A DNA stretch of 64,000 nucleotides from Winogradskyella eckloniae (GTDB lineage Bacteria; Bacteroidota; Bacteroidia; Flavobacteriales; Flavobacteriaceae): assembly GCF_013249045.1 (NCBI RefSeq), contig NZ_JABRWP010000003.1, positions 186,001 through 250,000 on the forward strand, in the 5' to 3' direction. The translations under genes were made by a program, and so were the position numbers. This document shows, in pieces, positions 2,054 to 56,293 of the stretch. How positions within the stretch are numbered: position 1 is the stretch's first letter; each line of letters opens with the position of its first letter. The notes under the pieces are model-generated. The model was not told where the DNA came from and did no database searches. It saw nothing but the letters and a program-made list of their open reading frames with translations.

Positions 2054-4405
2054 TTATCGTCTTAAGGCAAAATGACCTGTATATGTTGAACCATCGATGA
2101 AATTTGCAACATACCAATAATCATCACTCGGAACCAAGTTGCCATTAAATCTACCATCCCAACCATCTAAAAAAGTGAGTTGTTGTGTGATTAATTGACC
2201 GTATCTATTAAATATTTCAATTGAAGTGATATGTTGAAACTGTTGTTCTGATCCGAATACTTTCCAAACAGGATTATCTTCGTCGCCGTTTGGTGTGAAG
2301 AATTTAGGAAATCCTAAAACAGAAATGGTTTCTTCAGTAATTCCACAACCATTTTTATCCTTAACATAAATGGTATGAAAACCTGTAGAAACATTAGAGA
2401 AAGTATAATTGGCATCGTAGTAAAATCCTTCAGGATCATCTAATGCAATTTCATAATCTCCAGCTCCAGAAATAGTAATTGTAATGGTGTTGTTCGGTGC
2501 AATTCCTTCTATGTTTACATGGTCAATAAGACCTTGTTGCGATGATAAAACAGTAATGGTTCTACTCGAGGAGCAACCATTAGGATCTGTAACAATTACA
2601 GTATATACACCAGGTTCAGTGACGTCATAAAATAAGGTGTCTATATCAGTCGCAGCACCATTAAATAACCATTGGTAATAATAATTATTAGGCAAATCGT
2701 TGAGAACACCACCAAAAATGGTAAGTGGTTCTTGCTGCGCATTGCTACAGTAAAAAACCGATTCATCTGCTTGCAGTGTAGGCGTGTATAGTACATTTAA
2801 ATTTGCTGTAGATATACTGTAGCACTGGCTATTACTATTGACTTTTACATAAATGGTTTGTGTATCTAATTCGCTATTGGTAAATGTTGTTGGTAGCGGA
2901 TTATTTTCTAGGATAGCATCGTATTCAGATTCATAAAATGTAACAAATGCATCAGTAGGTATGTCATCTTGTATAGCGGTTGTTATCTCATTAAGATTGA
3001 AAGAAGCCATGCCATCTATAGTGTCTCCATCACATTTTTCTAAATCTGGAATAGCCATGACGTTATTAGACGTTTGTAACTCTAATTCTGCAACGGCGTA
3101 ACAATTAGCATTATTGACTAACCTCGCATAAACCGTTTGAAAAGGTATGGTATTTTGAAAAGCTTCGGGATTAGAAATGGCATTTGTGTTTGATGCGGCA
3201 TCAGAGGCTGACAAGAAAAAACCAGAAATAGTATTGTCTTGATTTCCATTGGTTAATTCAACAGCAGCGTCAAATAAGTTAAAAATCGTAATGCCGTCTT
3301 GGTTAAGATCACATTCTATTAAGACAGCGTCAAAACCAACAGGCAGTGGAGCATATTCTATTATAACTTCGCCATAAGATTTACAGCCATTTTCTAAGGT
3401 TACTTCGACATTGTATCTGCCAGCTTCAGTAACGGTGTATTTGCCACAATTAAGACAATTCGCTGATTGAGATTCAACCAATATATCATCTTTATACCAA
3501 TCGTAACTATTTTGTCCTTCTTGTGAAGCATTTAATTCTAGCGTTTCGCCTTCACAAAGAGCAGTATTAGTTTCAATAAGTAAATTAGGGCCTAAATCTG
3601 AAGATAACTCAAAACTACTCGCTTCTAAAAATACGGCAGAATCATATCTGTAGTTGTGCTCATCTGCAATCACTAATTTTACGTGGTAGGTTTCGTTTGG
3701 GATAATATTAGCTGTAGCTGTTAAAATATCAGTTTGCCCATTAAAATTAATAGGAGCATCTGCACCATTAAAACTACCAAAATAAGTTGCGTTAGTAGGA
3801 GGGCAGTTGCCAGGAACTCCTGGTGTTACAGTTGTTACTTTTACAGGTGTATTGGTATCTGGGACTAAGGCTATATTTTCATATGGTTCCTGACTCGTTG
3901 CTGGTCGAATTAAAAAGCCAAATAAATCTGAAAACAAGCATGTGTTAGCATTATTTTCTTGGTATTCTTCTGAGGCAAAAATATAATTGAAGCTGATCTG
4001 CGTAGCAACTGAGGTAAATTCAAACTCTAGTATTGTTGCATTTAGTGTTCCTGTTTCGGCAAGTGCATTTTCTAAATCGTTATCACCAACCCAATTTGCG
4101 GCATCATCATCACTTAAACTCGTATTAGGACCAGGTACATTTTGTAGCCTGCCTGTACTTAGAACAATTCCGCTTTCAAAAGGAAAACTTGTTCCAGTAG
4201 CATCAAAATAGCCATAACTTTGATCAGCACCTCCAAAATCGCCTCCTACGATATTAGTCACTGTAACATTTTCAATACAATCACTATCTATTAAGATGTT
4301 TTCAATAAGCTCTTGTGGTGTATACGTTTGGCTATCTACAGTAATATTCTGAGCATTTGAATATACTGATATTATAATGGCAATGAAAAGGACTAATCGC
4401 TTCAT
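2054..4405 (-). CDS. Choice-of-anchor L surface protein with T9SS type B sorting domain
   Basis: This 783-residue secreted protein starts with the signal peptide MKRLVLFIAIIISVYSNAQ. A choice-of-anchor L domain follows at about 25-265 (landmarks FESGIVLSTG, FNYIFASEEYQ, KLVIADEHNYRYDSAVFLEASSF). An Ig/PKD-like domain is at about 272-350. Two copies of the shared Cys/Asp repeat follow (starting ECDLNQDG and KCDGDTIDG), then another Ig-like domain (GCSSSRTITVLSS). A SprB-like module ends in KDKNGCGITEETISV. The gliding motility-associated C-terminal domain (CHU_C, T9SS type B) begins FPKFFTPNGDEDN and ends GHFALRR. Type B tails export proteins through T9SS to the outer surface, usually with PorP/SprF-type partners, none of which is in this window. 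The role is probably adhesion or matrix; the ligand is unknown. It is separated from the next gene by about 300 bases and probably has its own promoter. Confidence 0.9.
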   Translation of the reverse strand: MKRLVLFIAIIISVYSNAQNITVDSQTYTPQELIENILIDSDCIENVTVTNIVGGDFGGADQSYGYFDATGTSFPFESGIVLSTGRLQNVPGPNTSLSDDDAANWVGDNDLENALAETGTLNATILEFEFTSVATQISFNYIFASEEYQENNANTCLFSDLFGFLIRPATSQEPYENIALVPDTNTPVKVTTVTPGVPGNCPPTNATYFGSFNGADAPINFNGQTDILTATANIIPNETYHVKLVIADEHNYRYDSAVFLEASSFELSSDLGPNLLIETNTALCEGETLELNASQEGQNSYDWYKDDILVESQSANCLNCGKYTVTEAGRYNVEVTLENGCKSYGEVIIEYAPLPVGFDAVLIECDLNQDGITIFNLFDAAVELTNGNQDNTISGFFLSASDAASNTNAISNPEAFQNTIPFQTVYARLVNNANCYAVAELELQTSNNVMAIPDLEKCDGDTIDGMASFNLNEITTAIQDDIPTDAFVTFYESEYDAILENNPLPTTFTNSELDTQTIYVKVNSNSQCYSISTANLNVLYTPTLQADESVFYCSNAQQEPLTIFGGVLNDLPNNYYYQWLFNGAATDIDTLFYDVTEPGVYTVIVTDPNGCSSSRTITVLSSQQGLIDHVNIEGIAPNNTITITISGAGDYEIALDDPEGFYYDANYTFSNVSTGFHTIYVKDKNGCGITEETISVLGFPKFFTPNGDEDNPVWKVFGSEQQFQHITSIEIFNRYGQLITQQLTFLDGWDGRFNGNLVPSDDYWYVANFIDGSTYTGHFALRR

Positions 4406-4423
4406 ATTCTAATTAAGGGAGTG

Positions 4424-4431
4424 CAAAGATA
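4424..4431 (-). promoter_or_regulatory. -7 box TATCTTTG upstream of the 783-residue surface protein
   Basis: The minus strand reads TATCTTTG, matching the Bacteroidota -7 consensus TAnnTTTG, 18 bases before the start codon at 4405. A correctly spaced -33 TTG is not evident (the nearest is only 9 bases away), so this rests on the -7 match. The predicted mRNA leader is very short, about 12 bases. Confidence 0.4.
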
Positions 4432-4478
4432 AGCATCTTACAACTTTTGCTCTTAAAAAAGATGTTAAACCTCCAGTG

Positions 4479-4560
4479 TTATCGACGTAGTGCAAAATGA
4501 CCTTTTATTTCAAAGGCCTTTCCATCTTGTATGATTTATTTGATATTCCGCAGAAATTAA
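4479..4560 (-). pseudogene. Decayed C-terminal remnant of a T9SS type B sorting domain
   Basis: On the minus strand, ending at a TAA at 4481-4479, one frame reads IIQDGKAFEIKGHFALRR-stop. This closely matches the ends of the neighbouring cargo proteins (…FDVKGHFTLKR and …TYTGHFALRR). Just upstream, in another frame, LISAEYQINH aligns with the preceding conserved stretch (PTSDYWFIAH). A frameshift and an in-frame TAA therefore separate the two pieces. No longer open frame continues upstream. I read it as the last ~27 codons of a deleted or recombined cargo gene. Confidence 0.7.
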
Positions 4561-4623
4561 AGAAATAATAGTGTTGAAGAATTATTACAAAGATTGAATT
4601 TTTATAAATTTTATTATAAAATA

Positions 4624-4646
4624 AAACCCTCTAATTTAGAGGGTTT
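4624..4646 (-). terminator. Rho-independent terminator after the 1613-residue surface protein gene
   Basis: The perfect hairpin AAACCCTCTAA/TTAGAGGGTTT (11-base arms) is followed on the minus strand by TTTTATTTTATAA. It lies about 60 bases beyond the stop codon at 4705. Confidence 0.8.
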
Positions 4647-4704
4647 GAATTTTCTTAATGGTAAGACATAACACTATGTTATTATGAATTCTATATGCAA
4701 ATAA

Positions 4705-7700
4705 TTAGCGTTTTAATGTAAAATGTCCTTTGACGTCAAAAGCAATTGTACCTTGTTGTACGTGGGCTATAAACCAATAGTCACTGGTTGGCATTTTATG
4801 ACCGTTATAATAACCATCCCATCCTGGAGAACTAGAGTTTAATTGTTTTATTAGTTTTCCGAAGCGATCAAAAATATCAATTGTTGTGCCTGATAGCGTT
4901 TCTATGCCTATAATATGCCATGTGTCAAAAGCACCATCGTTATTTGGTGTGAAAAATTTAGGAATATCAACTACGAGTACTTCTTTGGTTACGTTAGCAC
5001 AACCATTTAAATCTATGATGGTCACAGTATGGTATCCCATGGCTACATTTTCGAAATGATTAGATTCTTGCGGTTCAAAATCATCCAATTGATAGAGGTA
5101 ATCACCAATACCACTAATGGTCACTGTTATGTTATTCGGATCTGAAAAATCTACCACTTCAGTAGTTTCTATGGTTGCAGTTTCTGACTCAGATACTCCA
5201 AAATATTCGGTGTTTTCACAACCGTATTGTGTCGTTACTTTTACCCAATAACTGCCAACAGCTGTAATCTCAATTTCTGGTGTTATATCTCCAGTTGACC
5301 ACAGGTATGTATCTGTTGCTATATTTGTATTAGCTGATACAATTAGAGGATCACTTTCTAAACAGATGACCTGGTCACCAATATCTAAAACCGGAAGAGG
5401 ATATACAATAGTAGTAAAGCTTGTAATGTCGTAACACCCAGTATTATTGTTTTCTACACGAGCGTATATCGTTTCATTATTGTATGCTAAATAATCCAAT
5501 TCTAGAACAGATGTCTTTTCACTGGCCTGTAACTCAGAATTGTGATAGGATACCGTAAATAAATTTGAGTTTTGTCCGCCAAGAATAGTCGAGGATTGTT
5601 GCGATAAATCAAATTCTAAAATACCGTCAAAATCATCATCACAAGCGGCTAAATCATTAGGTTGATTTGCGGTTGGCAATGGATTGACATTGATATTAAA
5701 TTTATTATACGTAGAACAATGTGTTGTACTGTATTCGGTTCTCACATACAAAGTGTCAAAATTGGTTTGATACGTGTAATTTGTATCTAGAGCATTTGTA
5801 TTTGCTATGGCATCTGCCTCATTGTCAAAATAACTAAATAGAACATTGAAGTTGGTGTCTCTAGCAACGGAATTAATATCGGTTAAATCTACAGATTGCG
5901 TTGCATTGGCACAGACATCAAAGACTTCAAAATCATTAATTATTGGTGGTTGGTTTACAATTAACTCTATAGGTGTTGTAACATAACAATTAGAGATCGT
6001 GTTTGTTACAGTCATATAAACCGTTTGAGGGTTTGATGTATTGGTGTAATTTTCAGGGTTTGCAATTTGATTTGACTGAGATTCTGAATCTTCGAAGTTT
6101 TCGTAAAATGTAAATTCAAGATCTTCTTGTCTAACATCTAAAACATTTGATTGTGCAAACGTAAGGTCAAACTGAAGTGTTCCGTCGGTATCATCATCAC
6201 ATTCAATTAATGGATCAGCAGGTGCTACATCTGGTGTTCTAATGACATTAATTACAAATGAAGTAATAGATTGACAGATGGTTCCATTGTCTATTTGAAC
6301 ATAGATTTGTTGTGGATTAACCGTATTCTCAAACTGTAATGGAATTTCATTAGTGTCATTAATAGCATCATCTTCTGAAGTAAAGAATTTTACCGTTTCT
6401 ATATCTGGAATACCTGCAGAAATCTCAGTGATTTTATCAGTGAAATCAAACATGGTAGAACCATCAACAACACTATCATCACAAACAAGTAAATTAGTAG
6501 GTTCGTTATATATTGGGTTTGTACCTACTTCAATTAAAAATGAAGATGTTGTATAACAAGATGTATCGGTTAGGTTATCAATCCTAACATAGATCTCTTG
6601 AGGATTAGTGACGTTTTCGTAAATACTAGTTTTATCGATGGCATTTGTTTTATTATCTGCATCGGTTTGATTGGTATAATAACTCACATCCTTTCCGGTC
6701 TGACCACTTAAGGCTTCCTCGTCTTTATTTTGAAAAATGAACTCTCCAAAACCATCAGAATTATCTTCACAAAACGTAAGTTCATTGACATAATTACTTA
6801 AATCACCTACAAACGGTAATGTGTTCACAATAATATCTAACTCTTCAATGGCATAACAGCCTGTATTTGTATTCTCTACACGCATTAATACAATTTCTGT
6901 TTGCGCTTCGTAATTAGATAAGTTTGTTATGGCATTTTCATCTAATTGGGCATCAGATAGTGAATTATGGAAAGTTACACTACGATTTGGAGTGGCTAAA
7001 ATTGAAACAGGAATGCTGTTATTTAAATTAATCGTTGAAAAACCATCTCTATCTGCATCACAAATAATAATTTGATCTGGCGTTTCGCTTTCTGGTGCTG
7101 GTAGCACTGTCACTTCAAATGAGTTAGCGTCATAACAACCTGTTTCCGAAGATGTAATTCTTGGATGTAATGTAAATGGGTTGGTTGTATTTGTATAAAA
7201 ATTAGGAAGTGCGTTAGTATTGTCCTCAGCATCTTGTGCTGTAGGATAGTAAGTAACTGTAAATCCATCTTGCCCATTGGTAACTTCAGCATCTAATGTT
7301 GATAGGTCTGTAGTTGTAAAACCGTCTTGATCTTCATCACAAATGGTTGTGCTTATTATAGAATCAAAAGTTTCAATTTGGTTTAATATTAAATCGAACT
7401 CTGCAAATTCTTCACACGAACTATTTTTTAAAGTAATATATATTGTTTGAGGATTATCTTGGTTGGTATATGGAATGTCTGGATTAATTTCATTAGCATT
7501 GTTTTCTCTATCTATTTCCGTTTCAAAATACGCAATCGTTATACCTTCTATGTTATTTACAAAATTGATTGTGATATCATTGAAATGAAATTCTTCTGTA
7601 CCATCATCATCAAAATCACATAGGGTAATGTCATTGATAGTAGTACCTGTAAGTAAAAGATTGGTATGTAATTCAATAGGAACAATAGATGCACAGTTTG

Positions 7701-9546
7701 AGTTATTACTTTCTACTCTAATATATACAACTTGCTCTTCACTTACGGTATTTGGATAGTTGGTGTCATTGGCTATAGGATTCGCTCCAGTTGTTGCGTC
7801 TTCAGCCGTTTCATGGAACGTAACCGTTACATCTGTTAAGCCTTCTAAAACTTCAGGAATGATAGATGTAAGGTCAAAATCTGCATAACCATCATGATCT
7901 GCGTCACAGGCATCAATATAATGAGGTTCCATATTTATTACAGGACTTTCTAGTACTGAAATATCTAAAGTTGTTGTACTTATACAACCAGTTTCAATAT
8001 CTTGTACACTTACAAATAATTGCTCAGTAGGATTTGTATTAGTGTATGGCATTGGATAGGCATTTATTCCATTTGCGGCATCACTCGCTGTACCATGATA
8101 TGTCACTACAAGACCTTCTTGAGATAAAGTTATTTCTGCATCTTTAAGTGCATTTAAATCCATTGCCGTTGTGCCATCTCCAGATTGATTATCACATATT
8201 TCTAAAGCGGTTGGGTTGGTTATTATTGGCTTTGAATTTACAACCAAATCAAAGTTAGAATAGGCTAAACAACCATTTACAGTGTCTTCAATTCTAACAT
8301 AAATGGTGTGTGGATTACCTATATTTTGAATAGGAGCATTTATGGCATTTGTATTGGTTAAGGCATCAGAATCGGAATAATGATAAGATACGGCATAACT
8401 AGAATTAGGAACTGAAGCTATGACTTCTGCATCTTTTGTAGATAAATCAAAAGTTTCTACACCATCATTACTAATGTCATCACAGAGTGTAAAATCAGTT
8501 AGTGGTTCTGCGGTTTGCGCAGAATTTAATGTAATATTAACTTCATCTTCAATAATACAAGAGTTTCCGGCAAGCGGTAATGAAATCTCAACTCTATACG
8601 TACCAGATACTACAGCAGTAAGCGTTGGCTGATTTTCTGAAGGCATTTCTACATCATTTAAAAACCAAGAGTAAGTAGCGCTAGTGTTTTGAATATTACC
8701 ATTTAAAAAGGCACTATTTGCACATGTTGTGAGGTCCTCTCCTAAATCTACAGAAGCATCAAAACTGTTTCCTTCTATAAATACTGCAGAATCGTAATTT
8801 TTATCTGTTTGATCTGCTATTACTAGCTTTATTTGGTATTGTACATTGGGTTGAATCGCTGCTGTTGCAGAGAGTACAGTAGTTCTACCATTATAATTGG
8901 TGTCTCCTAAGTTGTAACCTTCAAAATACTCTTCATTTGAAGCACTACAAAAACCAACAATATCATCGTGTACAGTATTTGTATTGACTGGTATTGAGGT
9001 CCCTGGAACTAATGCAATATTTGTATAAGGATCACTTGTGCCGCTTTGCCTTATTAGAAATGCAAATCCATCTGAATATTCACATGGGAAATTCCCGAAA
9101 TATTCTTCAGAGGCGAGTATATAATTAAATTGAATTTGGTTGGATATGGAAATGAAATCAAACTCAATGGATGTGGCATTTACAGTTCCAGAAATACCAA
9201 GTGCTGTTTCAAGATCACTATCAGTAAGCCAAGTTTCGTCACCATCGTTAAGAATATCATTGTTTTGTCCGTTACCAGCAGAATTGGCATTACCTGTTGT
9301 TAATACAATTCCGTTTTCAAAAGGAAAATTGGAGGCACCTTTTTCAAAATAGCCGAAGCTACCTATACCAATTGATGATCCGTTTGAGGGTGAGGAAATA
9401 TTAGAGACTTCTACACAACCTTGTATTAAGGTGTTTTGTATTAAGTCTTGTGGTGAAACTGAATTATCTACGGTAACTTGTTGAGCAAACGATATGCTAC
9501 AAATTAAGCCCATAAATAAGCAGAGGGAGCGATTTAAATAAGTCAT
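4705..9546 (-). CDS. Giant choice-of-anchor L repeat protein with T9SS type B sorting domain
   Basis: This 1613-residue surface protein has a signal peptide ending SISFAQ. A choice-of-anchor L domain spans about 30-265 (FENGIVLTTGNA, FNYILASEEYFGNF, KLVIADQTDKNYDSAVFIEGNSF), followed by an Ig-like domain. Eleven tandem copies of an ~85-95 residue repeat then run from about 350 to 1355. Each repeat opens with Cys plus an acidic DxDG-type loop (CDADHDG, CDEDQDG, CDDDTDG, CDDDFDG). Each continues through a TYHxTxxDAxxxxN segment and NPQTIYVRVEN, and most have a second Cys (TGCY). An Ig-like domain (VICLESDPLIVSANT), a SprB-like segment and the CHU_C type B domain (IPKFFTPNNDGAFDTW … GHFTLKR) finish the protein. 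The repeated DxDxDG loops suggest Ca2+ binding and the Cys pair suggests one disulfide per repeat; both are inferences. It probably forms a long extracellular stalk. It is flanked by its own terminator and a 387-base upstream region, so it is a separate transcription unit. Confidence 0.92.
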   Translation of the reverse strand: MTYLNRSLCLFMGLICSISFAQQVTVDNSVSPQDLIQNTLIQGCVEVSNISSPSNGSSIGIGSFGYFEKGASNFPFENGIVLTTGNANSAGNGQNNDILNDGDETWLTDSDLETALGISGTVNATSIEFDFISISNQIQFNYILASEEYFGNFPCEYSDGFAFLIRQSGTSDPYTNIALVPGTSIPVNTNTVHDDIVGFCSASNEEYFEGYNLGDTNYNGRTTVLSATAAIQPNVQYQIKLVIADQTDKNYDSAVFIEGNSFDASVDLGEDLTTCANSAFLNGNIQNTSATYSWFLNDVEMPSENQPTLTAVVSGTYRVEISLPLAGNSCIIEDEVNITLNSAQTAEPLTDFTLCDDISNDGVETFDLSTKDAEVIASVPNSSYAVSYHYSDSDALTNTNAINAPIQNIGNPHTIYVRIEDTVNGCLAYSNFDLVVNSKPIITNPTALEICDNQSGDGTTAMDLNALKDAEITLSQEGLVVTYHGTASDAANGINAYPMPYTNTNPTEQLFVSVQDIETGCISTTTLDISVLESPVINMEPHYIDACDADHDGYADFDLTSIIPEVLEGLTDVTVTFHETAEDATTGANPIANDTNYPNTVSEEQVVYIRVESNNSNCASIVPIELHTNLLLTGTTINDITLCDFDDDGTEEFHFNDITINFVNNIEGITIAYFETEIDRENNANEINPDIPYTNQDNPQTIYITLKNSSCEEFAEFDLILNQIETFDSIISTTICDEDQDGFTTTDLSTLDAEVTNGQDGFTVTYYPTAQDAEDNTNALPNFYTNTTNPFTLHPRITSSETGCYDANSFEVTVLPAPESETPDQIIICDADRDGFSTINLNNSIPVSILATPNRSVTFHNSLSDAQLDENAITNLSNYEAQTEIVLMRVENTNTGCYAIEELDIIVNTLPFVGDLSNYVNELTFCEDNSDGFGEFIFQNKDEEALSGQTGKDVSYYTNQTDADNKTNAIDKTSIYENVTNPQEIYVRIDNLTDTSCYTTSSFLIEVGTNPIYNEPTNLLVCDDSVVDGSTMFDFTDKITEISAGIPDIETVKFFTSEDDAINDTNEIPLQFENTVNPQQIYVQIDNGTICQSITSFVINVIRTPDVAPADPLIECDDDTDGTLQFDLTFAQSNVLDVRQEDLEFTFYENFEDSESQSNQIANPENYTNTSNPQTVYMTVTNTISNCYVTTPIELIVNQPPIINDFEVFDVCANATQSVDLTDINSVARDTNFNVLFSYFDNEADAIANTNALDTNYTYQTNFDTLYVRTEYSTTHCSTYNKFNINVNPLPTANQPNDLAACDDDFDGILEFDLSQQSSTILGGQNSNLFTVSYHNSELQASEKTSVLELDYLAYNNETIYARVENNNTGCYDITSFTTIVYPLPVLDIGDQVICLESDPLIVSANTNIATDTYLWSTGDITPEIEITAVGSYWVKVTTQYGCENTEYFGVSESETATIETTEVVDFSDPNNITVTISGIGDYLYQLDDFEPQESNHFENVAMGYHTVTIIDLNGCANVTKEVLVVDIPKFFTPNNDGAFDTWHIIGIETLSGTTIDIFDRFGKLIKQLNSSSPGWDGYYNGHKMPTSDYWFIAHVQQGTIAFDVKGHFTLKR

Positions 9547-9933
9547 TTAGTTTCGGTTAAGTTTAAAAGTTTGGTGTAGAGTTGATTTGGGGTCTACTAA
9601 TACACATGCTTTATGATGGCCGAAAAATAGAATTAAAAAAGATGAAATACAAAAAAATACGTTGAAATGCACTAAATGTTAACATATTTCACGTAAATCA
9701 GTCATAATTGAAAGAAAATTATTTCAAAAATTGGATTTAAAAATAAATTTGATTGCATTATTTCAAAAATATTTTGTAGGAAAATCTACCAATAAGTTGA
9801 ATGTTTCAATTAAAAAATGGAGGGACTTTAAATGTCTTGAGGGAAATTGTATTTATTGAATACCGAATAAAAGTATGCTAACAAAAACGTAATTCCAAAA
9901 AAATAAGCTGAACGACTTAAAATTTTAACACTT
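9547..9933. other. Gene-free 387-base stretch upstream of the giant repeat protein
   Basis: No convincing open frame is present. It contains the perfect palindrome ATGTTAACAT (9676-9685) and a 14-base direct repeat ATTATTTCAAAAAT (9718-9731 and 9757-9770). The promoter of the 4705-9546 gene should lie here, but I find no exact TAnnTTTG box close to the start. No clear terminator is visible after the 9934-11724 gene. Confidence 0.5.
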
Positions 9934-11724
9934 TTAATAATTTACATAAACCCATCCCATGCTTGGCTGAAAATTTGAATCATTCAAATTTAAAATGTAA
10001 TAATAGGTGCCAACAGGTACTTTATTTCCAATATTATTAAGTCCTCTGTTGATTTCGCCAAACCAAGGTTTATTGTTGTCACCTTCAAAAATTAAGTTAC
10101 CATACCGATTATAAATCTGCAATTCGTGTTCGGTAAAAATATCATATAAACCTTGAATATTAAACCAATCATTATAGCTGTCATTATTTGGAGAAAATCC
10201 TTGTGGAATATAAGGTGGGCAATTTTCAACAATTAGATCAAATTGAAAAATTTCATAACACGGAGGGCTTTCTACGCGTACATAAATCGTTTCTGGCATA
10301 GAAGTGTAATATTCTGTTAACACAATGGATTGGGCGTTGTTTTCTAAGGCTTCTAGGTTGGTGAAAAAACTAATATTGTCCATAATAAGATCCATGCCTT
10401 CTAAAGCATCAAATAAATTAAATGTGGTAGTTTCAAAACCTTCGTTACAACCAATAACTCCTGGTAATAGCATTATTTCAGGAATGACAAGTAGTTCTAT
10501 TTCAATAGCCATGGTATTGTTATTTTCGTTGGTCTCGGTTACAATACCACTCATAGTGCCATCATCGTCAACAACGGCTAAGACAGTAACATTGCTATCT
10601 GAATTGTCTGGTAAGGTGAGTACAATTGAATTGCTTTCGCTTGCGTTTATTTCAATATTATTCTGTGTTACGCTTTGGCCAATGAGTACGTTATTATGGT
10701 AAAATGCTATTGGTGTGTCTGCCGGTAAAATTGCTGTACTATTGGTGTTGTAAACGGTATAATATAGTTCAATTGAATTGTTACCGCAATTAACACTATA
10801 ATCGTCAGTATTAATGGTGGCATCTGGTAATTGACTATTGAGGACAGTGATAATATTGTTGATCATTACAAAATCTTGTCCTGAGGTCAGTTGAATGGTT
10901 GCAGAAGTATCGCCAATATTAATATTGTTCTGAATATTATAAACATCAATATCCATATTATATAAATTTGATGCTCCTGTAAACGAGTTCGTTCCATTAA
11001 ATGCGTTGTTGGCTGGGTTTAGCGGAAAGTTACTAATCACACTGCCGTTTATGGTTAGTTGTTCATTCACAGAGATACCACTATCTCCTTCCCATGCTAC
11101 AAAACCAATTTTTGCATTATCATTATCTAAAACATTCAGATTATCCAAGGTTATACTTAAAAATGTGGGTACACTTTGTAATCCATCATACACATTGAGC
11201 TGATTTAACGGTAGGTCAGTGTCTTCATAAATAATAGTGATCGCCCAACCACCAAAATTTGTTCCTGTTGGACAATATGAAGGAATGACACCAGATAAAT
11301 CAAAATCTGAAACGGTATAATCGCCATTTCCTTCTGATAAAATAATGGAAGTCACATCTGCATAGGCAGCAAAAAACACACGGTCTGCGTCTAAAGCATC
11401 CGCAAAAGAGCGCTCAGCATTGATTGTGATTCCATTTAATTTAATATTTAAATCTCCTAGGCCAGAGCCTGCCCAATAGAGGTATGCTGCAACTATATTT
11501 TGATTTGAATTAAGATTAAGACTAGCCGTTGAGCTCGTTAAAATGGCACAAGTTGCTTCAAGACCATTTTCTTCAGAATTTAATGTATTGCCTATTGCTG
11601 TGTAATCATATCTTCCGTTAAATTGTTGAAACAAGGAAATATCTTGAGCCACTGCTTGGGATGTAGCACAAATAAAAAGGCTAAAAACTATTAAAAGTTT
11701 TTTTGTCAAAGCTATAGGAGTCAT
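9934..11724 (-). CDS. Secreted protein with T9SS type B sorting domain
   Basis: This 596-residue protein has a signal peptide (MTPIALTKKLLIVFSLFICATSQAVAQ). The N-terminal β-rich domain of about 280 residues contains VAAYLYWAGSG and FGGWAITIIYEDTDLP; it resembles DUF3344/anchor-type domains found at the head of other flavobacterial type B cargo, an assignment made from memory of the wording. A CARDB-like segment follows (YTVYNTNSTAILPADTPIAFY … NENNNT). Next is one diverged copy of the shared repeat (GCNEGFETTTFNLFDAL … ETIYVRVESPPCYE), which has lost the acidic DxDG loop. The CHU_C type B tail begins YIPQGFSPNNDSYNDWF. The tail differs from its neighbours in ending PSMGWVYVNY instead of GHFxLKR. 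It follows the 11747-14218 gene by 22 bases and is probably the last gene of that operon. Confidence 0.88.
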   Translation of the reverse strand: MTPIALTKKLLIVFSLFICATSQAVAQDISLFQQFNGRYDYTAIGNTLNSEENGLEATCAILTSSTASLNLNSNQNIVAAYLYWAGSGLGDLNIKLNGITINAERSFADALDADRVFFAAYADVTSIILSEGNGDYTVSDFDLSGVIPSYCPTGTNFGGWAITIIYEDTDLPLNQLNVYDGLQSVPTFLSITLDNLNVLDNDNAKIGFVAWEGDSGISVNEQLTINGSVISNFPLNPANNAFNGTNSFTGASNLYNMDIDVYNIQNNINIGDTSATIQLTSGQDFVMINNIITVLNSQLPDATINTDDYSVNCGNNSIELYYTVYNTNSTAILPADTPIAFYHNNVLIGQSVTQNNIEINASESNSIVLTLPDNSDSNVTVLAVVDDDGTMSGIVTETNENNNTMAIEIELLVIPEIMLLPGVIGCNEGFETTTFNLFDALEGMDLIMDNISFFTNLEALENNAQSIVLTEYYTSMPETIYVRVESPPCYEIFQFDLIVENCPPYIPQGFSPNNDSYNDWFNIQGLYDIFTEHELQIYNRYGNLIFEGDNNKPWFGEINRGLNNIGNKVPVGTYYYILNLNDSNFQPSMGWVYVNY

Positions 11725-11746
11725 AGTTGTAATTACATCATTAGTG

Positions 11747-14218
11747 TTATCGTTTTAATGAGAAATGACCTGTTAAATTTCTTCCATCTTCTAATTTTAC
11801 TTTAAACCAATAATCGCTACTTGGCATTTTAGTTCCATTAAAAGTGCCATCCCAACCTGCACTTAATGGGTCTAATCTTTTTAAAAGTTTTCCGTATCTA
11901 TCAAATATATAAATGTATGTGTTTGGCTGAAATTGCGATGAAATTCCACTGACTTGCCAAAAGTCATTTTCTGAATCATTATTTGGTGTAAAAAACTTAG
12001 GAAAACCAATAACAGATACGGCCTGTTCTGCGATGCCACAATTATTTTTGTCTCTTACATATACTGTATGTAGTCCAGATGGTACGTTTACAAACGTATT
12101 AGCGTCTTGGTACGGACCGTCACTATTATTAAGGGCATACTCATAATTACCACCATTACCAGTAACAGATATTGTAATGGAATTATTTTGTACAGCGTCT
12201 AAAACATCTATTTGCGTTATAGTAGCAATGGTAGAAGGTAATACCGTAATTGTTCTATCCTTATAACATCCATTAGAATTGGTAACGCGAACGGTATAAT
12301 TTCCAGGTGTATTGACCTCAATGGTTGTGGTAGTCTCTCCTGTAGACCATAAATAACTGTAATTATTAGGAATGTCATTAATCACACCACCAGTTAAGGT
12401 TGTGGTGGCAGGTGCGAGGTTTTCACAGTAAATAGTGTTATCTGTGATTTCAATATTTGGTAATTCAAAAACCGAAAGTTGAATGTCACTTATGCCATAA
12501 CACGCATTTGAATTTTCTACTCTGGCATATATTATTTGATCGTACGCCATAGTATTTGTATAAATGGGGTTTAACGGATTGTCTTCTATTAAAGCATCAT
12601 TATAGGTTTCATAAAAAGTGATATCTAAATTTGTTGTGGTTGTATTTGCTATGATGTCATTATTAATCGTACTCAAATCAAATGTCATAAAACCATCTTC
12701 TGTACCATCTGTATCACATAGCGCTATACTTGCATTATTAGAATTTGTTGTACTCACTTCTAATGATATTTCTCCAAAATTTACACAACCTGTATTGGTG
12801 TTGGTTACTCGTGCGTATACAATTTGAGGATTAAAAAAATTATCAAACGATGTTCCGTCAATAGCGTTGTTTTGATTTTGGGCGTCAATTTGTGATAAGT
12901 AAAATTCTACCGAAGAATTTGATTCTTGATTAGTTATATCATCTATAGCTTCTGTTAAATTGAATGTTGTAAACCCTTCTGGGATGCCATCTTCATCACA
13001 TTGAATGAGCGATACATTATTGGCGGTTGGTTTAGATAGTACTGTAGCTAAAAACGAAGTGAATGTTACACAACCTTGATCTAAATCTTCTATTCTTACA
13101 AATATTTCTGTAGAACCTGAAATGGTATTATTAAAATTTAACGGTAGTGGTGCCGTTTCAGATTCTGCATTGGCCTGAGTTAGGTAATAACTTATGTCGT
13201 AGTTAATGCCTGTAATTCCGTTAATAATTTCTTGGCTTTTGGTGTTGAAATTAAACGTTGATAGTCCATTTTGATCGTCTCCATCTGTATCATCGTCACA
13301 AATCTCAAAATCCGTGGGCTGATTGAAGTTGGTTAGGATAGTAACATTTAATGTAAAACGATTAATTATAAAACATCCTGTGGTTGAATTTTCTATTCTA
13401 ACAAAAATTTGTTGGCTACCTGTAGTGTTTGTAAATACATCACCTAACGCACCAATGTTTATATTGGCATCACTTTCTGATAAATGGTAACTAACGAGTA
13501 CGTCAGACTCACCATTGATGATGTCTTGTGAGAGTTGGCTAAAATCAATTTCTCTTATAGTATCGTTGTAAGGTGCGGCATCATCACAAATCGTAATATT
13601 TGGTAATAATAATGAATTAGAATTGGATAATAACGGATTCGTAGGGCCTTCAGGAAACGTAGCAGTTCCCGTCCAATTTATTGAAAACGGACTATTGCCA
13701 ATAGGTCTATCAATTACTATAAAGTAACTTTCACCAGCAAGGACATCAATATCACTTACAAAACTGTCTCCATCTGCTCCTGGTCCTTCATTAGTCGCAG
13801 GATCAGTGTTGTTTAAACCTGTTAAGTTATTACCTTGGTTGGCAGCAGCAGGATTTGTAGTTGAGCAACGTATGGCTTGCCCAATAGCACCACAACTAAC
13901 ATTTGGACCAAAAATAAAGAAGTCATAATCTTCATTTATACTGTTACTTCCTGGTGTTAGCGTAAATGCCAAAGTGCCACTGGTAGCAATATTAACTTCT
14001 AACCAAAGACTGTTGTTTTCTTGTCCAGAACATGAGTTAGAATTATTTAGTTCTTGCGTTCCATTTCCGTTTACATCTAAGCTAAAGTCTGAATTGCCAC
14101 AAACAGTAACCGCAAATTGACAATCATTTGGTTCTTGTGCAAAAACCGATAAATTAAAAATAAATATAAGGGTAATTGAAAGTGTATATTTAGATGTAGT
14201 TACAAATTTATTGGTCAT
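11747..14218 (-). CDS. Repeat-containing surface protein with T9SS type B sorting domain
   Basis: This 823-residue protein has a signal peptide ending NLSVFAQ. The N-terminal domain (about 30-180) has a PPC/jelly-roll character (SLWLEVNIATSGTLAFTLTP, DYDFFIFGPNVSCG, AGESYFIVIDRP) often found at the head of flavobacterial cargo proteins. Four copies of the Cys/Asp repeat follow (starting CDDAAPYND, CDDDTDGDDQNG, CDEDGIPEG, CDTDGTEDG). An Ig-like domain (GCYKDRTITVLPS), a SprB-like module (VRDKNNCGIAEQAVSV) and CHU_C (FPKFFTPNNDSENDFW … GHFSLKR) complete it. The second half is strikingly similar to that of the neighbouring 1145-residue protein, so the two are tandem paralogues. Its start overlaps the stop of the upstream gene by 4 bases (ATGA), so translation is probably coupled. 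Confidence 0.9.
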   Translation of the reverse strand: MTNKFVTTSKYTLSITLIFIFNLSVFAQEPNDCQFAVTVCGNSDFSLDVNGNGTQELNNSNSCSGQENNSLWLEVNIATSGTLAFTLTPGSNSINEDYDFFIFGPNVSCGAIGQAIRCSTTNPAAANQGNNLTGLNNTDPATNEGPGADGDSFVSDIDVLAGESYFIVIDRPIGNSPFSINWTGTATFPEGPTNPLLSNSNSLLLPNITICDDAAPYNDTIREIDFSQLSQDIINGESDVLVSYHLSESDANINIGALGDVFTNTTGSQQIFVRIENSTTGCFIINRFTLNVTILTNFNQPTDFEICDDDTDGDDQNGLSTFNFNTKSQEIINGITGINYDISYYLTQANAESETAPLPLNFNNTISGSTEIFVRIEDLDQGCVTFTSFLATVLSKPTANNVSLIQCDEDGIPEGFTTFNLTEAIDDITNQESNSSVEFYLSQIDAQNQNNAIDGTSFDNFFNPQIVYARVTNTNTGCVNFGEISLEVSTTNSNNASIALCDTDGTEDGFMTFDLSTINNDIIANTTTTNLDITFYETYNDALIEDNPLNPIYTNTMAYDQIIYARVENSNACYGISDIQLSVFELPNIEITDNTIYCENLAPATTTLTGGVINDIPNNYSYLWSTGETTTTIEVNTPGNYTVRVTNSNGCYKDRTITVLPSTIATITQIDVLDAVQNNSITISVTGNGGNYEYALNNSDGPYQDANTFVNVPSGLHTVYVRDKNNCGIAEQAVSVIGFPKFFTPNNDSENDFWQVSGISSQFQPNTYIYIFDRYGKLLKRLDPLSAGWDGTFNGTKMPSSDYWFKVKLEDGRNLTGHFSLKR

Positions 14219-17200
14219 CGTTTTAAGGTAAAATGATTTTTAAAAACACGGCCGTCTTCTAATGTAACTTTAAACCAATAATCACTTGTTGGCATTTTAA
14301 ATCCATTATAATTTCCGTCCCAACCAGGACTCAATGGGTCTAGTTCTTTTAAAAGTTTTCCGTATCTATCAAATATATATATTGTTGAATTGGCTTGAAA
14401 CTGTTCTGTAATGCCATAAACTTGCCAGAAATCATTTATGGAATCATTATTGGGCGTGAAAAATTTAGGAAAACCGATTACAGATACAGATTCTTCTGTG
14501 ATGCCACAGTCATTTTTGTCTCTAACATATACAGTGTGGATTCCAGGAATGACGTTGAGAAATGTATTACTGTCCTGGTATGGCCCTAAAGCATCATCTA
14601 ACGCATATTCATAGTTTCCAGAACCACTCACAATAACTGATATTGTATTATTTTGAGAAGCATCGGTCACGTCAATACTCGTGATAGAAGCATTAATTGA
14701 CGGTAAAACAGTGATAGTTCTGTCTTTATAACAACCATTTGTATTAGAAACTCTAACCGTATAGTTGCCAGGTGCATTAATTTCAATTTCAGAGGTGTTC
14801 TCTCCTGTAGACCACGCATAGTAATAATTATTAGGCAAGTCGTCTTGCACACCACCATTTAAAAGAATAGGTTCTGGATAAGTGTTTAAGCAATATATAG
14901 TATCATCTGCTGTTTCAATATTTGGTAAACTAAAAACAGTTAACTCAACTTCACTGATACCAAAGCAGTTGTTGTTATTTTCAACACGTCCAAATATCGT
15001 TTGATTATATGCCGTTGTATTCATAAAAGAATTCCCAAGAGGATGTATTTCTAATAAGGCATTTTCATAGGTTTCATAATAAGTTAGGTTGACATCACTG
15101 GTAATTTGTGCTAAAACAGCATTGTTAGCATCTGTCAAATTAAAGGTCATAAAACCATCTTCAATTCCATCGGTATCGCAAAGTTCTAAACTTGTGTTTA
15201 GCGATGAGGTTGAACTAACCTCTAATGTAACCTCACTAAAGTTTATGCAATTAGAATTGGTATTAGACACTCTAGAATAAATGGTGTGAGGGTTGTAATA
15301 ATTTTCAAAAGCATTCGCATTTATAGGATTTTCTTGGTTCTCTGCATCCATTAGAGATATATAAAACTCAACAATAGAGCCTTCGACGTTATCGGTAATG
15401 TCCGCTATATGGTTATTTAAATTAAATAATGTATAGCCTTCGGGAATACCATCTTCATCACATTGTAGAATTGTAATATTATTAGCAATAGGAACAGGAT
15501 CTACACGCAAATTAAAACTTAAAGTTGTATAGCAGTTTTCATTCTGACTATTTTCTATTCTAACAAAAATTTGTTCATTAAAAGCAGTGGTGTTTGAATA
15601 ATTAATCGGAAAAGCAGAAGCATTGGCATCTGCATCATCTTGTGAGGAATGAAATGTAACGCTAGTTTGGCTGACATCTTGTTCTCCAAAAATAGAAGGT
15701 ATAAAGGTTTCTAGATTTACAGCACCTATACCGTCTATAGGATTATCAAGGTTATCACAAATAGCAATATTATTTAATGCAGAAAACAATGGCACATTAA
15801 AAACTTCAATAGAAAAGGAATTTATATCATAACAGTTTGGGTTTTCTGAATTTTCTACTCTTGCAAAAATTGTTTGAGGGTTTTCGATATTACTATAAGG
15901 AAAGATTATACTGTTTTCACCAGAATTGGCATCTTCCAAAGTTTCAAAATAAAGAACATTATACATCGAAGGGTCTTGGTCTAGTAATGCTTCTGAATCT
16001 TTAGATGAAAAATTAAAATTTTGAACACCATCATTAGTGAAATTATCACAGACTTCAACATCTGATAAAGCATTTGCAACCGGAATGTCAAAAACACCAA
16101 CTACAGCACTGCCTTCAATGGGACATTCCCCATTATTAGGTTCTATATAAACTTCGTAATATCCAGGAGTGTCCACAAATAATTGAAACGATGTTTCTGG
16201 TAATGCCGCATTATTAAATGTCCAATAATAATCTGCGCCAGGAATATTTTGAGCTTCTAACGTATAAGAATCATTAGTGCAAAGTTTAAGTTCTGTTGTA
16301 CTAATACCGTTTTGTATTATGTCTATTTCCGAATTAAAAAGTGATTGAATAAATGGTGGCAACCCTATTCTGCTTTTATTTAAATTTGTGCCATTAAAAT
16401 CAATCAATATACCTTGCTCATTGTAGTTAGCAGCCGTGCCATCTGCTTCTGGATTAGCAATTACGCCTAAGTAATCTGAGATATTATCATTACCAGAATA
16501 ACTCAGTTGAGCTCTGTAAATACGTCGGTCTATACCTAACTGCAAGGCTCCTGCAGTCATCTGTGATGAGGAATGAATAATTTGTATAGAATTTATGATA
16601 TCTGAACTTTCTAAATCCCATTGCATAACATGGCTAGTACCTGCACCTCCAGCGCCTTCGCTAATAGTGGCATAGACTTTTCTATTTTCAGCAGAAAATT
16701 CTACACCATATGGACTGTTATTATTTTCTGGACCATAAAGTTCTATATGATTAGATATTACACCTGTTTCGTTATTAAAATCATATAAATCCACACTGCC
16801 TGCAGCATTATCACCTGGTGTTGTAGCTTTGCCAAAATTGGCTGCAATTAGTTTTGAAGCATCAGGAGATGCCTTTAAATACCCTAAAGAATTTCGTCTG
16901 TAGCCTGAAATTGGTATGTTAGGTCCAACAGTAGATATAACAGGAGTCGTATTTACACCATTAACATCAACTCTAAAGGCATAAAACTTGTCGCCAAAAT
17001 GAGTAATGACCCAAAAAGAGGAGCAATCCTCTGCTCTTACCGCTGTGATTTTTTCAGAACATTTATATTGTAAATCTAACGTTGAAGAAGGGTCATAAGT
17101 TATTAAATGCATGTTTTTTTCTACAGCATCGACATCTCCTAATCCGCCGTTGAGCGTCATATCTATTAACGAATAATTAAAACCATTATTAAAACCATCA

Positions 17201-17652
17201 TCTTCATTAGGTACGCTACCACCTTGGTCATAAATGCCTGTAAATTGATTTGGATAAGCACTTGCATTATCGTGATGTGGTTCATCTACAGTAAACAAAT
17301 AATATTTTGTAGGATCTTCTGGCTTGGGTACTATTAAACCAGATGATGTACTAGATGGGTCACCTAAAAGCCCAGTACCAGCAAAATAATTTCCGTTGGA
17401 CATAATTTGGTGGTTGCTATTCCAAACCGTCCTTCCGTCAGAATAGAATTGTAAATTACCATCTGCATCAGAAATGGATGTACAGCCTTCTAACGTATTT
17501 ATTTGTCCTCCTGAAATCGCCGTAACCGTTCCATTTTCTGCATTAAATTGCAAGCCAGCATTTTGCCCAAAATACCAAAATGAAGCTTCATTTTGAGCAA
17601 ATAAATGCACACTAGTTATTATAAGTATAAAAACTAAATAATTCTTTTTCAT
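14215..17652 (-). CDS. Repeat-containing surface protein with N-terminal propeller-like domain and T9SS type B sorting domain
   Basis: This 1145-residue protein has a short signal peptide (MKKNYLVFILIITSVHLFAQ). The first ~470 residues look like a WD40/β-propeller-type lectin-like head (FWYFGQNAGLQFN, NLQFYSDGRTVWN, GLIVPKPEDPTKYYLFTVD, VEFSAENRKVYAT). An Ig-like domain follows (ADYYWTFNNAALPET). Four Cys/Asp repeats start CDNFTNDG, CDNLDNPIDG, CDEDGIPEG and CDTDGIEDG. An Ig-like domain (GCYKDRTITVLPS), a SprB-like module and CHU_C (FPKFFTPNNDSINDFW … NHFTLKR) end it. It is the first gene of an apparent three-gene operon running down to 9934. I see no canonical -7 box directly upstream. Confidence 0.9.
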   Translation of the reverse strand: MKKNYLVFILIITSVHLFAQNEASFWYFGQNAGLQFNAENGTVTAISGGQINTLEGCTSISDADGNLQFYSDGRTVWNSNHQIMSNGNYFAGTGLLGDPSSTSSGLIVPKPEDPTKYYLFTVDEPHHDNASAYPNQFTGIYDQGGSVPNEDDGFNNGFNYSLIDMTLNGGLGDVDAVEKNMHLITYDPSSTLDLQYKCSEKITAVRAEDCSSFWVITHFGDKFYAFRVDVNGVNTTPVISTVGPNIPISGYRRNSLGYLKASPDASKLIAANFGKATTPGDNAAGSVDLYDFNNETGVISNHIELYGPENNNSPYGVEFSAENRKVYATISEGAGGAGTSHVMQWDLESSDIINSIQIIHSSSQMTAGALQLGIDRRIYRAQLSYSGNDNISDYLGVIANPEADGTAANYNEQGILIDFNGTNLNKSRIGLPPFIQSLFNSEIDIIQNGISTTELKLCTNDSYTLEAQNIPGADYYWTFNNAALPETSFQLFVDTPGYYEVYIEPNNGECPIEGSAVVGVFDIPVANALSDVEVCDNFTNDGVQNFNFSSKDSEALLDQDPSMYNVLYFETLEDANSGENSIIFPYSNIENPQTIFARVENSENPNCYDINSFSIEVFNVPLFSALNNIAICDNLDNPIDGIGAVNLETFIPSIFGEQDVSQTSVTFHSSQDDADANASAFPINYSNTTAFNEQIFVRIENSQNENCYTTLSFNLRVDPVPIANNITILQCDEDGIPEGYTLFNLNNHIADITDNVEGSIVEFYISLMDAENQENPINANAFENYYNPHTIYSRVSNTNSNCINFSEVTLEVSSTSSLNTSLELCDTDGIEDGFMTFNLTDANNAVLAQITSDVNLTYYETYENALLEIHPLGNSFMNTTAYNQTIFGRVENNNNCFGISEVELTVFSLPNIETADDTIYCLNTYPEPILLNGGVQDDLPNNYYYAWSTGENTSEIEINAPGNYTVRVSNTNGCYKDRTITVLPSINASITSIDVTDASQNNTISVIVSGSGNYEYALDDALGPYQDSNTFLNVIPGIHTVYVRDKNDCGITEESVSVIGFPKFFTPNNDSINDFWQVYGITEQFQANSTIYIFDRYGKLLKELDPLSPGWDGNYNGFKMPTSDYWFKVTLEDGRVFKNHFTLKR

Positions 17653-56103: not shown

Positions 56104-56293
56104 TAGAATCCTGTTTAAATCTTCATTTTTATAAATACGAGTTTTATACCAAGTTTTAGTTAAGCTATTCGGATTTTTTTGTTTTATGAGTAGTTATAGA
56201 AATTAAGCCCGTAAAATGTAATGTCATTATTTATGGCTTTAGGTGTTTTTTTGTTTAACTTGTTTTATAATTGAATCATTAACCCAACCAAAT

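Follow-up and report, generated by a model that had tools for sequence, protein, structure and literature searches.

What holds the products of five neighbouring genes on the surface of Winogradskyella eckloniae, and what are their repetitive bodies made of? The question is raised by positions 2054-17652 of a 64,000-nucleotide stretch of contig NZ_JABRWP010000003.1 (hereafter the window), where five adjacent minus-strand genes, here called g1 to g5, each encode one or more copies of a unit marked by two cysteines (C1 and C2) and carry a C-terminal domain (CTD) for the type IX secretion system (T9SS). We consider it probable that these proteins are adhesins built as disulfide-stapled, immunoglobulin (Ig)-like rods of fixed length and anchored to PorP/SprF-type shuttles, which for g1, g2, g4, and g5 would be shuttles of the gliding track. 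Two parts of this answer will be new to a specialist, namely the constancy of the g2 array and a rule that connects CTD subclass with shuttle type.

The original prediction had counted 22 copies of the unit in the five genes and proposed that a profile be built from them and searched against Pfam and other Bacteroidota. Alignment of every C1 to C2 segment yielded the same 22 units, split 2, 11, 1, 4, and 4 between g1 and g5, with a length of ~95 residues and a mean pairwise identity of 28% (range 15-54%). No alignment column other than C1 and C2 is invariant; the glycine of an acidic loop is present in 20 of the 22. A profile made from the 11 g2 units alone found all units of g1, g4, and g5 at E values of 1e-12 to 1e-21 and the single g3 unit at 1e-6, the profile from the non-g2 units recovered 11 of 11 g2 units, and a control of 1000 shuffled proteins gave one match, at E 0.5, so that the count was confirmed by both alignment and cross-validated profiles. 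Two more units, absent from the original prediction, lie in a sixth gene of the window, and the genome as a whole yields 49 matches to the unit, spread over about a dozen genes. At E<=1e-5, the profile search found the unit in 55 of 392 Bacteroidota genomes; it occurs in 42 of 45 sampled Flavobacteriaceae genomes besides the source genome, in 7 of 8 sampled genomes of one other family of the same order, and in few genomes elsewhere. The features are as follows; g5 and g4 overlap by 4 bases.

2054..4405, minus: g1, secreted protein of 783 amino acids with anchor-L head, Ig/PKD-like domain, 2 units, PKD-like domain, and type B CTD
3611..4270, minus: g1 choice-of-anchor L domain (NF038133)
3065..3355, minus: g1 unit 1
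2786..3076, minus: g1 unit 2
2057..2314, minus: g1 type B CTD (TIGR04131), SprF-type subclass
4705..9546, minus: g2, 1613 amino acids with anchor-L head, Ig-like domain, 11 units, PKD-like domain, and type B CTD
8761..9444, minus: g2 choice-of-anchor L domain (NF038133)
8233..8526, minus: g2 unit 1
7948..8238, minus: g2 unit 2
7657..7950, minus: g2 unit 3
7378..7662, minus: g2 unit 4
7099..7383, minus: g2 unit 5
6820..7104, minus: g2 unit 6
6520..6813, minus: g2 unit 7, within the three-unit tandem model
6238..6525, minus: g2 unit 8, with a conserved longer loop of the CDDSxVDG type
5950..6243, minus: g2 unit 9, source of the single-unit structure model
5680..5955, minus: g2 unit 10, without acidic loop, both Cys retained
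5398..5685, minus: g2 unit 11
4708..4971, minus: g2 type B CTD (TIGR04131), SprF-type subclass
9934..11724, minus: g3, 596 amino acids with N-terminal head, 1 unit, and type B CTD of the other (static-carrier) subclass
10222..10491, minus: g3 unit 1
9967..10209, minus: g3 type B CTD (TIGR04131), grouping with cargo of carriers that lack a Cys-x-Cys (CxC) tail
11747..14218, minus: g4, 823 amino acids with N-terminal head, 4 units, PKD-like domain, and type B CTD
13337..13630, minus: g4 unit 1
13034..13342, minus: g4 unit 2
12749..13042, minus: g4 unit 3
12464..12760, minus: g4 unit 4
11750..12010, minus: g4 type B CTD, SprF-type subclass
14215..17652, minus: g5, 1145 amino acids with long N-terminal head (propeller-like by eye), Ig-like domain, 4 units, PKD-like domain, and type B CTD
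15796..16092, minus: g5 unit 1
15496..15801, minus: g5 unit 2
15211..15504, minus: g5 unit 3
14929..15222, minus: g5 unit 4
14218..14478, minus: g5 type B CTD, SprF-type subclass
56243..59077, plus: sixth unit-bearing gene, with 2 N-terminal units, anchor-L-like region (by eye), DUF7619, and type A T9SS tail (Por_Secre_tail)

No family in Pfam (2025) or NCBIfam (2026) covers the unit, and 37 Pfam and 19 NCBIfam families each match at most one of 126 diverse units at E<=0.1. The SprB repeat family PF13573 matched no unit, its only hit being a below-cut-off stretch of 21 residues at g4 residues 680-700, outside the units. PDB sequence searches with the units, a tandem profile, and the whole of g2 found no relative (query alignments A1 and A2 gave none at E<=10, and A3 one unrelated chain at E 3), and no paper naming the repeat or matching its motif strings was found in the literature. 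By the same count of matches the unit does not fall in the PKD or Ig_7 families of Pfam, and profile comparison (hhalign) was not significant between the unit and the PKD/Ig-like domains flanking it in its own proteins, while those flanking domains do match one another. The unit is thus a real, unannotated, and widespread domain family. Contig ends in the source genome (C10, C28, C23, C1, C2, and C4) lie within unit arrays or coincide with type B CTDs that are nearly identical (99% for those on C1 and C4), and with assembly breaks at such places unit-bearing genes are probably under-counted in draft genomes.

The cysteines were surveyed in 644 units from 24 loci. Both are kept in 627, most exceptions being gapped alignments, and a single extra Cys occurs in the entire set; the only clear substitution is in the first unit of the sixth gene, where C1 is present and C2 is lost. 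C1 and C2 are mostly 65-77 residues apart and the step from C2 to the following C1 is mostly 25. An obligatory inter-unit disulfide across that constant step was rejected in view of the first units of g3 and g4 orthologues, which retain C1 and yet have no Cys 15-35 residues upstream, and for the same reason the pair is most simply placed within the unit. Last units usually have a Cys after them, with which an optional bond between units is compatible, and covariation of the cysteines is uninformative because the pair is nearly invariant. The one disulfide per unit that had been proposed, between C1 and C2, is therefore the best reading of these counts, and the cysteine pair, rather than a Ca2+ loop, is what defines the unit. 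The g3 orthologues also share a conserved third Cys, 13 residues past C2 (ENCPP), in the linker to the CTD.

Structure prediction of a single unit, another suggestion of the original prediction, gave a confident Ig-like AlphaFold2 model (pLDDT, the predicted local distance difference test, 94.6; pTM, the predicted template-modelling score, 0.84) from an input alignment of 126 units. The model has strands at residues 12-15, 42-47, 73-81, and 87-97 plus two short helices; the first strand ends with C1, and C2 immediately precedes the last. A three-unit tandem was modelled at pLDDT 94.0 and pTM 0.77 with linker blocks of about 92-93, and since these linkers are well defined a fairly rigid chain is predicted. 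When the single unit was compared with the PDB by VIA-align, the first seven rows were all fragments of GhpA (Z 6.7-7.1), whose Ig-like domains align at Z 6.3-7.1 and a root-mean-square deviation (rmsd) of 2.3-2.6 over ~80 residues, followed by Rib and Ig domains at Z 6.5 and below. GhpA also came first for the tandem (Z 6.8-8.2, rmsd 5.5-7.7 over 219-230 residues), most other Ig tandems giving an rmsd of 9-13 A; Z values of 7-8 are typical background for this method, so the claim is limited to an Ig-like arrangement. The models predict an Ig-like fold for the unit and a rod for the tandem. Each unit would then be an autonomous Ig-like beta-sandwich held by one internal C1-C2 disulfide, and units set head to tail on short linkers would make a fairly rigid rod that holds the N-terminal head away from the cell. 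An Ig-like domain is about 4 nm long, and 11 units would span some 40-45 nm.

An alternative source of stiffness is the acidic loop. The DxDxDG motif might bind one Ca2+ per unit and rigidify the rod as in cadherins or RTX adhesins, with seawater Ca2+ driving folding outside the cell. The landmarks of the unit had been described correctly in the original prediction, although CDxDxDG, given there as the usual start, is a minority form: among 600 loops scored, 200 are strict DxDxDG, 226 are longer acidic loops, and 174 are neither. In favour of this, the strict loops hold D1 in 185 of 200, Asp or Asn at position 3 in 160+40 of 200, and D5 in 193 of 200, and the loop is conserved by position in g2 units 3, 5, 6, 9, and 11 (21 of 24 orthologues for unit 6 and 23 of 24 for unit 9). 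Ca2+ binding is accordingly possible in many units. The usual EF-hand or integrin loops, however, have an acid at position 9 or 12, and none is conserved here; moreover, in 23 of 24 orthologues g2 unit 10 has no such loop, yet both its Cys are kept. Just one unit in three has the strict loop and g2 unit 10 has none, so Ca2+ does not define the unit, the loop does not stand as a general unit feature, and we regard Ca2+-rigidified rods as rather unlikely.

How the rods would be attached was approached through their C-termini. The type B sorting domain (TIGR04131) was found on all five proteins at 41-123 bits (cut-off 35) and choice-of-anchor L (NF038133) on g1 and g2 at 162 and 154 bits (cut-off 27), in agreement with the earlier description of modular extracellular T9SS cargo. 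Type B cargo are known to leave the translocon bound to PorP/SprF-like shuttles (PMC9143113, PMC10994853), and the C-terminal domain would thus export each protein through the T9SS and leave it bound to an outer-membrane shuttle of this type. The source genome has 9 PorP/SprF-like (PF11751) genes and 20 type B CTDs; none of the nine is near the cluster and no shuttle lies directly downstream, making g1-g5 all orphan cargo. In a tree of CTDs, g1, g2, g4, and g5 stand apart from the cargo of non-CxC carriers with a support of 1.0, and g3 falls among the latter. We divided the CTDs accordingly into two groups of our own: a first that takes in g1, g2, g4, and g5, further unit-bearing orphans, and the cargo of the two CxC-tailed shuttles, and a second with g3 and the cargo of shuttles without CxC. 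To carry this division to further members of Flavobacteriaceae, we used profiles from which every CTD of CxC-linked cargo had been left out. A second-group CTD precedes 30 of 30 non-CxC shuttles and a first-group CTD precedes all 7 CxC shuttles with an adjacent CTD (Fisher p 1e-7), showing that CTD subclass and shuttle type are associated. For 19 more CxC shuttles, the upstream sequence extends 1.3 kb or more and has no directly adjoining cargo gene, and another four are at contig ends. Most of the CxC shuttle loci (L105-L131) in the sampled genera have no directly upstream cargo, which suggests that orphan shuttles like Fjoh_1677 are the rule in Flavobacteriaceae.

One genome (G422) brings the unit and this shuttle type together: the gene directly before its CxC shuttle encodes a 2097-amino-acid protein with 13 units and a first-group CTD. 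The relative of this cargo in the source genome stops at a contig end, and the CxC shuttle stands at the start of a different contig, preceded by a CTD; this is consistent with the assembly having broken within near-identical CTDs. Over all loci, 100 scored unit-bearing proteins have first-group CTDs and 23 have second-group CTDs. A disulfide bond joins SprF, through its CxC tail, to the track protein GldK (PMC12635249); GldJ is present in the source genome. The CTDs of g1, g2, g4, and g5 would thus be handled by twin-cysteine (CxC) SprF-type shuttles, which elsewhere are disulfide-linked to the gliding track, and because their subclass is that of CxC shuttles these four proteins are most likely orphan gliding-track or track-associated adhesins; g3 would belong with statically anchored cargo. 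Past work on F. johnsoniae provides a parallel: a single orphan shuttle serves three orphan type B cargo, and some SprB chimeras with the CTD of one of them, Fjoh_1123, travel along helical tracks (PMC12618676).

Several points weigh against this assignment. The carrier is inferred from CTD similarity, since the cluster has no shuttle gene, and the seven CxC shuttles with adjacent cargo are all orthologous, so that they represent fewer independent events. Helical motion with the Fjoh_1123 CTD was seen in 3% of cells only, so orphan cargo may be mostly static, and CTD motifs are reported to be necessary but not sufficient for carrier choice (PMC12618676). One unit-bearing gene, the sixth gene of the window, has a type A tail and another has the other CTD subclass and adjoins its own carrier, so the units as such do not imply the track. 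A Z of about 7 falls within the background of Ig-like folds. One alternative is that CTD subclass reflects ancestry only. Such a reading would account for the mostly static foci formed with the Fjoh_1123 CTD, for the static-type CTD of g3, and for the number of unit-bearing genes in the genome, which at about a dozen seems high for a motility adhesin. It sits less well with the agreement of CTD subclass and CxC carrier status in 37 of 37 scored loci, with the unit-bearing cargo found directly before a CxC shuttle, and with published swaps in which the CTD dictates final location (PMC12618676), and we therefore think it doubtful, though deserving some weight. We retain anchorage of g1, g2, g4, and g5 to the gliding track, and with it their adhesin role, as the probable reading.

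The length of the rod is best seen in g2. Its orthologues, from Winogradskyella, Psychroserpens, Meridianimaribacter, Kordia, Algibacter, Neptunitalea, and others, have exactly 11 units in 24 of 24 loci at 38-88% identity, and unit i best matches unit i of another species in 5608 of 6072 comparisons. Across genera, identity is 0.33-0.86 at the same position versus 0.26-0.29 at other positions. A further sample covered 149 genomes, almost every one from a different genus; a strong g2 match occurs in 61 and a full-length copy in 54 of these, and a hand count put all 59 full-length frames in this sample at 1606-1664 amino acids. The number and order of the g2 units are thus fixed, which makes the stalk of the original prediction more specific than proposed. 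Origin by recent tandem expansion was rejected, the g2 units being at most 40% identical to one another and their positions kept between genera. Orthologues of g1, g3, g4, and g5 mostly keep their 2, 1, 4, and 4 units, and Kordia g3 has 2. A paralogue adjoining g2 in many loci (L032-L049, e.g. L036:12981-19505) has 10, 11, 14, or 17 units, so the absence of any means to change does not explain why g2 is constant. Forms with 14 and 17 units follow the order 1-11 and then one or two extra 9-10-11 blocks; the paralogue thus seems to grow by this three-unit block, in which the middle unit is similar to loopless unit 10. A g2 homologue in another genome (G486:C1:261153-265947) is split by an in-frame TAA into frames of 688 and 941 amino acids, and is possibly a broken copy or a split gene.

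Selection in g2 would act on the length of the 11-unit rod and on the order of its units. That each unit instead has its own specific binding surface, the fixed order reflecting many ligands or partners and not length, would suit the unit-specific identity kept between genera, but is very unlikely given that conservation is nearly even among units (0.46-0.58), that no conserved polar cluster is evident beyond the landmarks, and that Ig-like domains in tandem often act as spacers. For the fixed-length rod, a bolder extension is that the 11-unit rods, present across roughly a third or more of sampled Flavobacteriaceae genera, serve as a ruler or lever moved along the gliding track by a shared orphan CxC shuttle and form a second conserved class of gliding adhesin beside SprB; we offer it as speculation, more likely wrong than right.

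What the rods would carry differs between the genes. Known domains in g1-g5, all outside the units, comprise the anchor-L heads carried by g1 and g2 plus matches of PKD/Ig-like type. Choice-of-anchor L (NF038133) has no match in g3, g4, or g5, and the front parts of these three have no Pfam match. Up to unit 2, g4 and g5 are 18-30% identical, and from unit 3 to the C-terminus 46-78%, indicating unlike fronts on a shared rear half, as expected from the head swapping that had been suggested.

Type B T9SS cargo include known gliding adhesins, and most are annotated by their C-terminal tag alone. The unit supplies a predicted fold and a searchable profile for the body of many of them, and the constant 11-unit array makes the idea of a stalk testable, in the form of selection on length or on order. 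Combining CTD subclass with the twin-cysteine tail of the shuttle yields a rule by which the surface proteins attached to the gliding track would be predictable from sequence.

Compared with known systems, the best structural neighbour of both the unit and the tandem is GhpA, the grappling hook protein of Aureispira (PDB 9flp, 9fls, 9flu-9fly, and 9g8b), likewise a giant surface protein of a Bacteroidota bacterium with tandem Ig-like domains of about 84 residues; no sequence relatedness was detected in the PDB search, and the Z values are no proof of kinship. The PKD and Ig_7 domains (PF18911, PF19081) that flank the arrays resemble the unit in length, in a first Cys near the start, and in a GC preceding the last strand, but profile comparison does not join them to it. 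A third of units share DxDxDG with the Ca2+ loops of EF-hand, dockerin, integrin, and thrombospondin type 3 proteins, although the conserved acid at position 9 or 12 is missing and many units have no motif. SprB and other type B cargo with PorP/SprF shuttles have the same C-terminal sorting domain (TIGR04131) as g1-g5, and g1, g2, g4, and g5, unlike g3, have the CTD subclass found beside CxC shuttles; g1-g5 differ from SprB in having no adjacent shuttle gene and a body of units rather than SprB repeats. The published orphan type B cargo (PMC12618676) come close, since like g1-g5 they have no adjacent shuttle; they share one orphan shuttle, and the CxC shuttle in relatives is mostly an orphan too. 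By kind, g1-g5 are a variant of the known type B surface adhesins.

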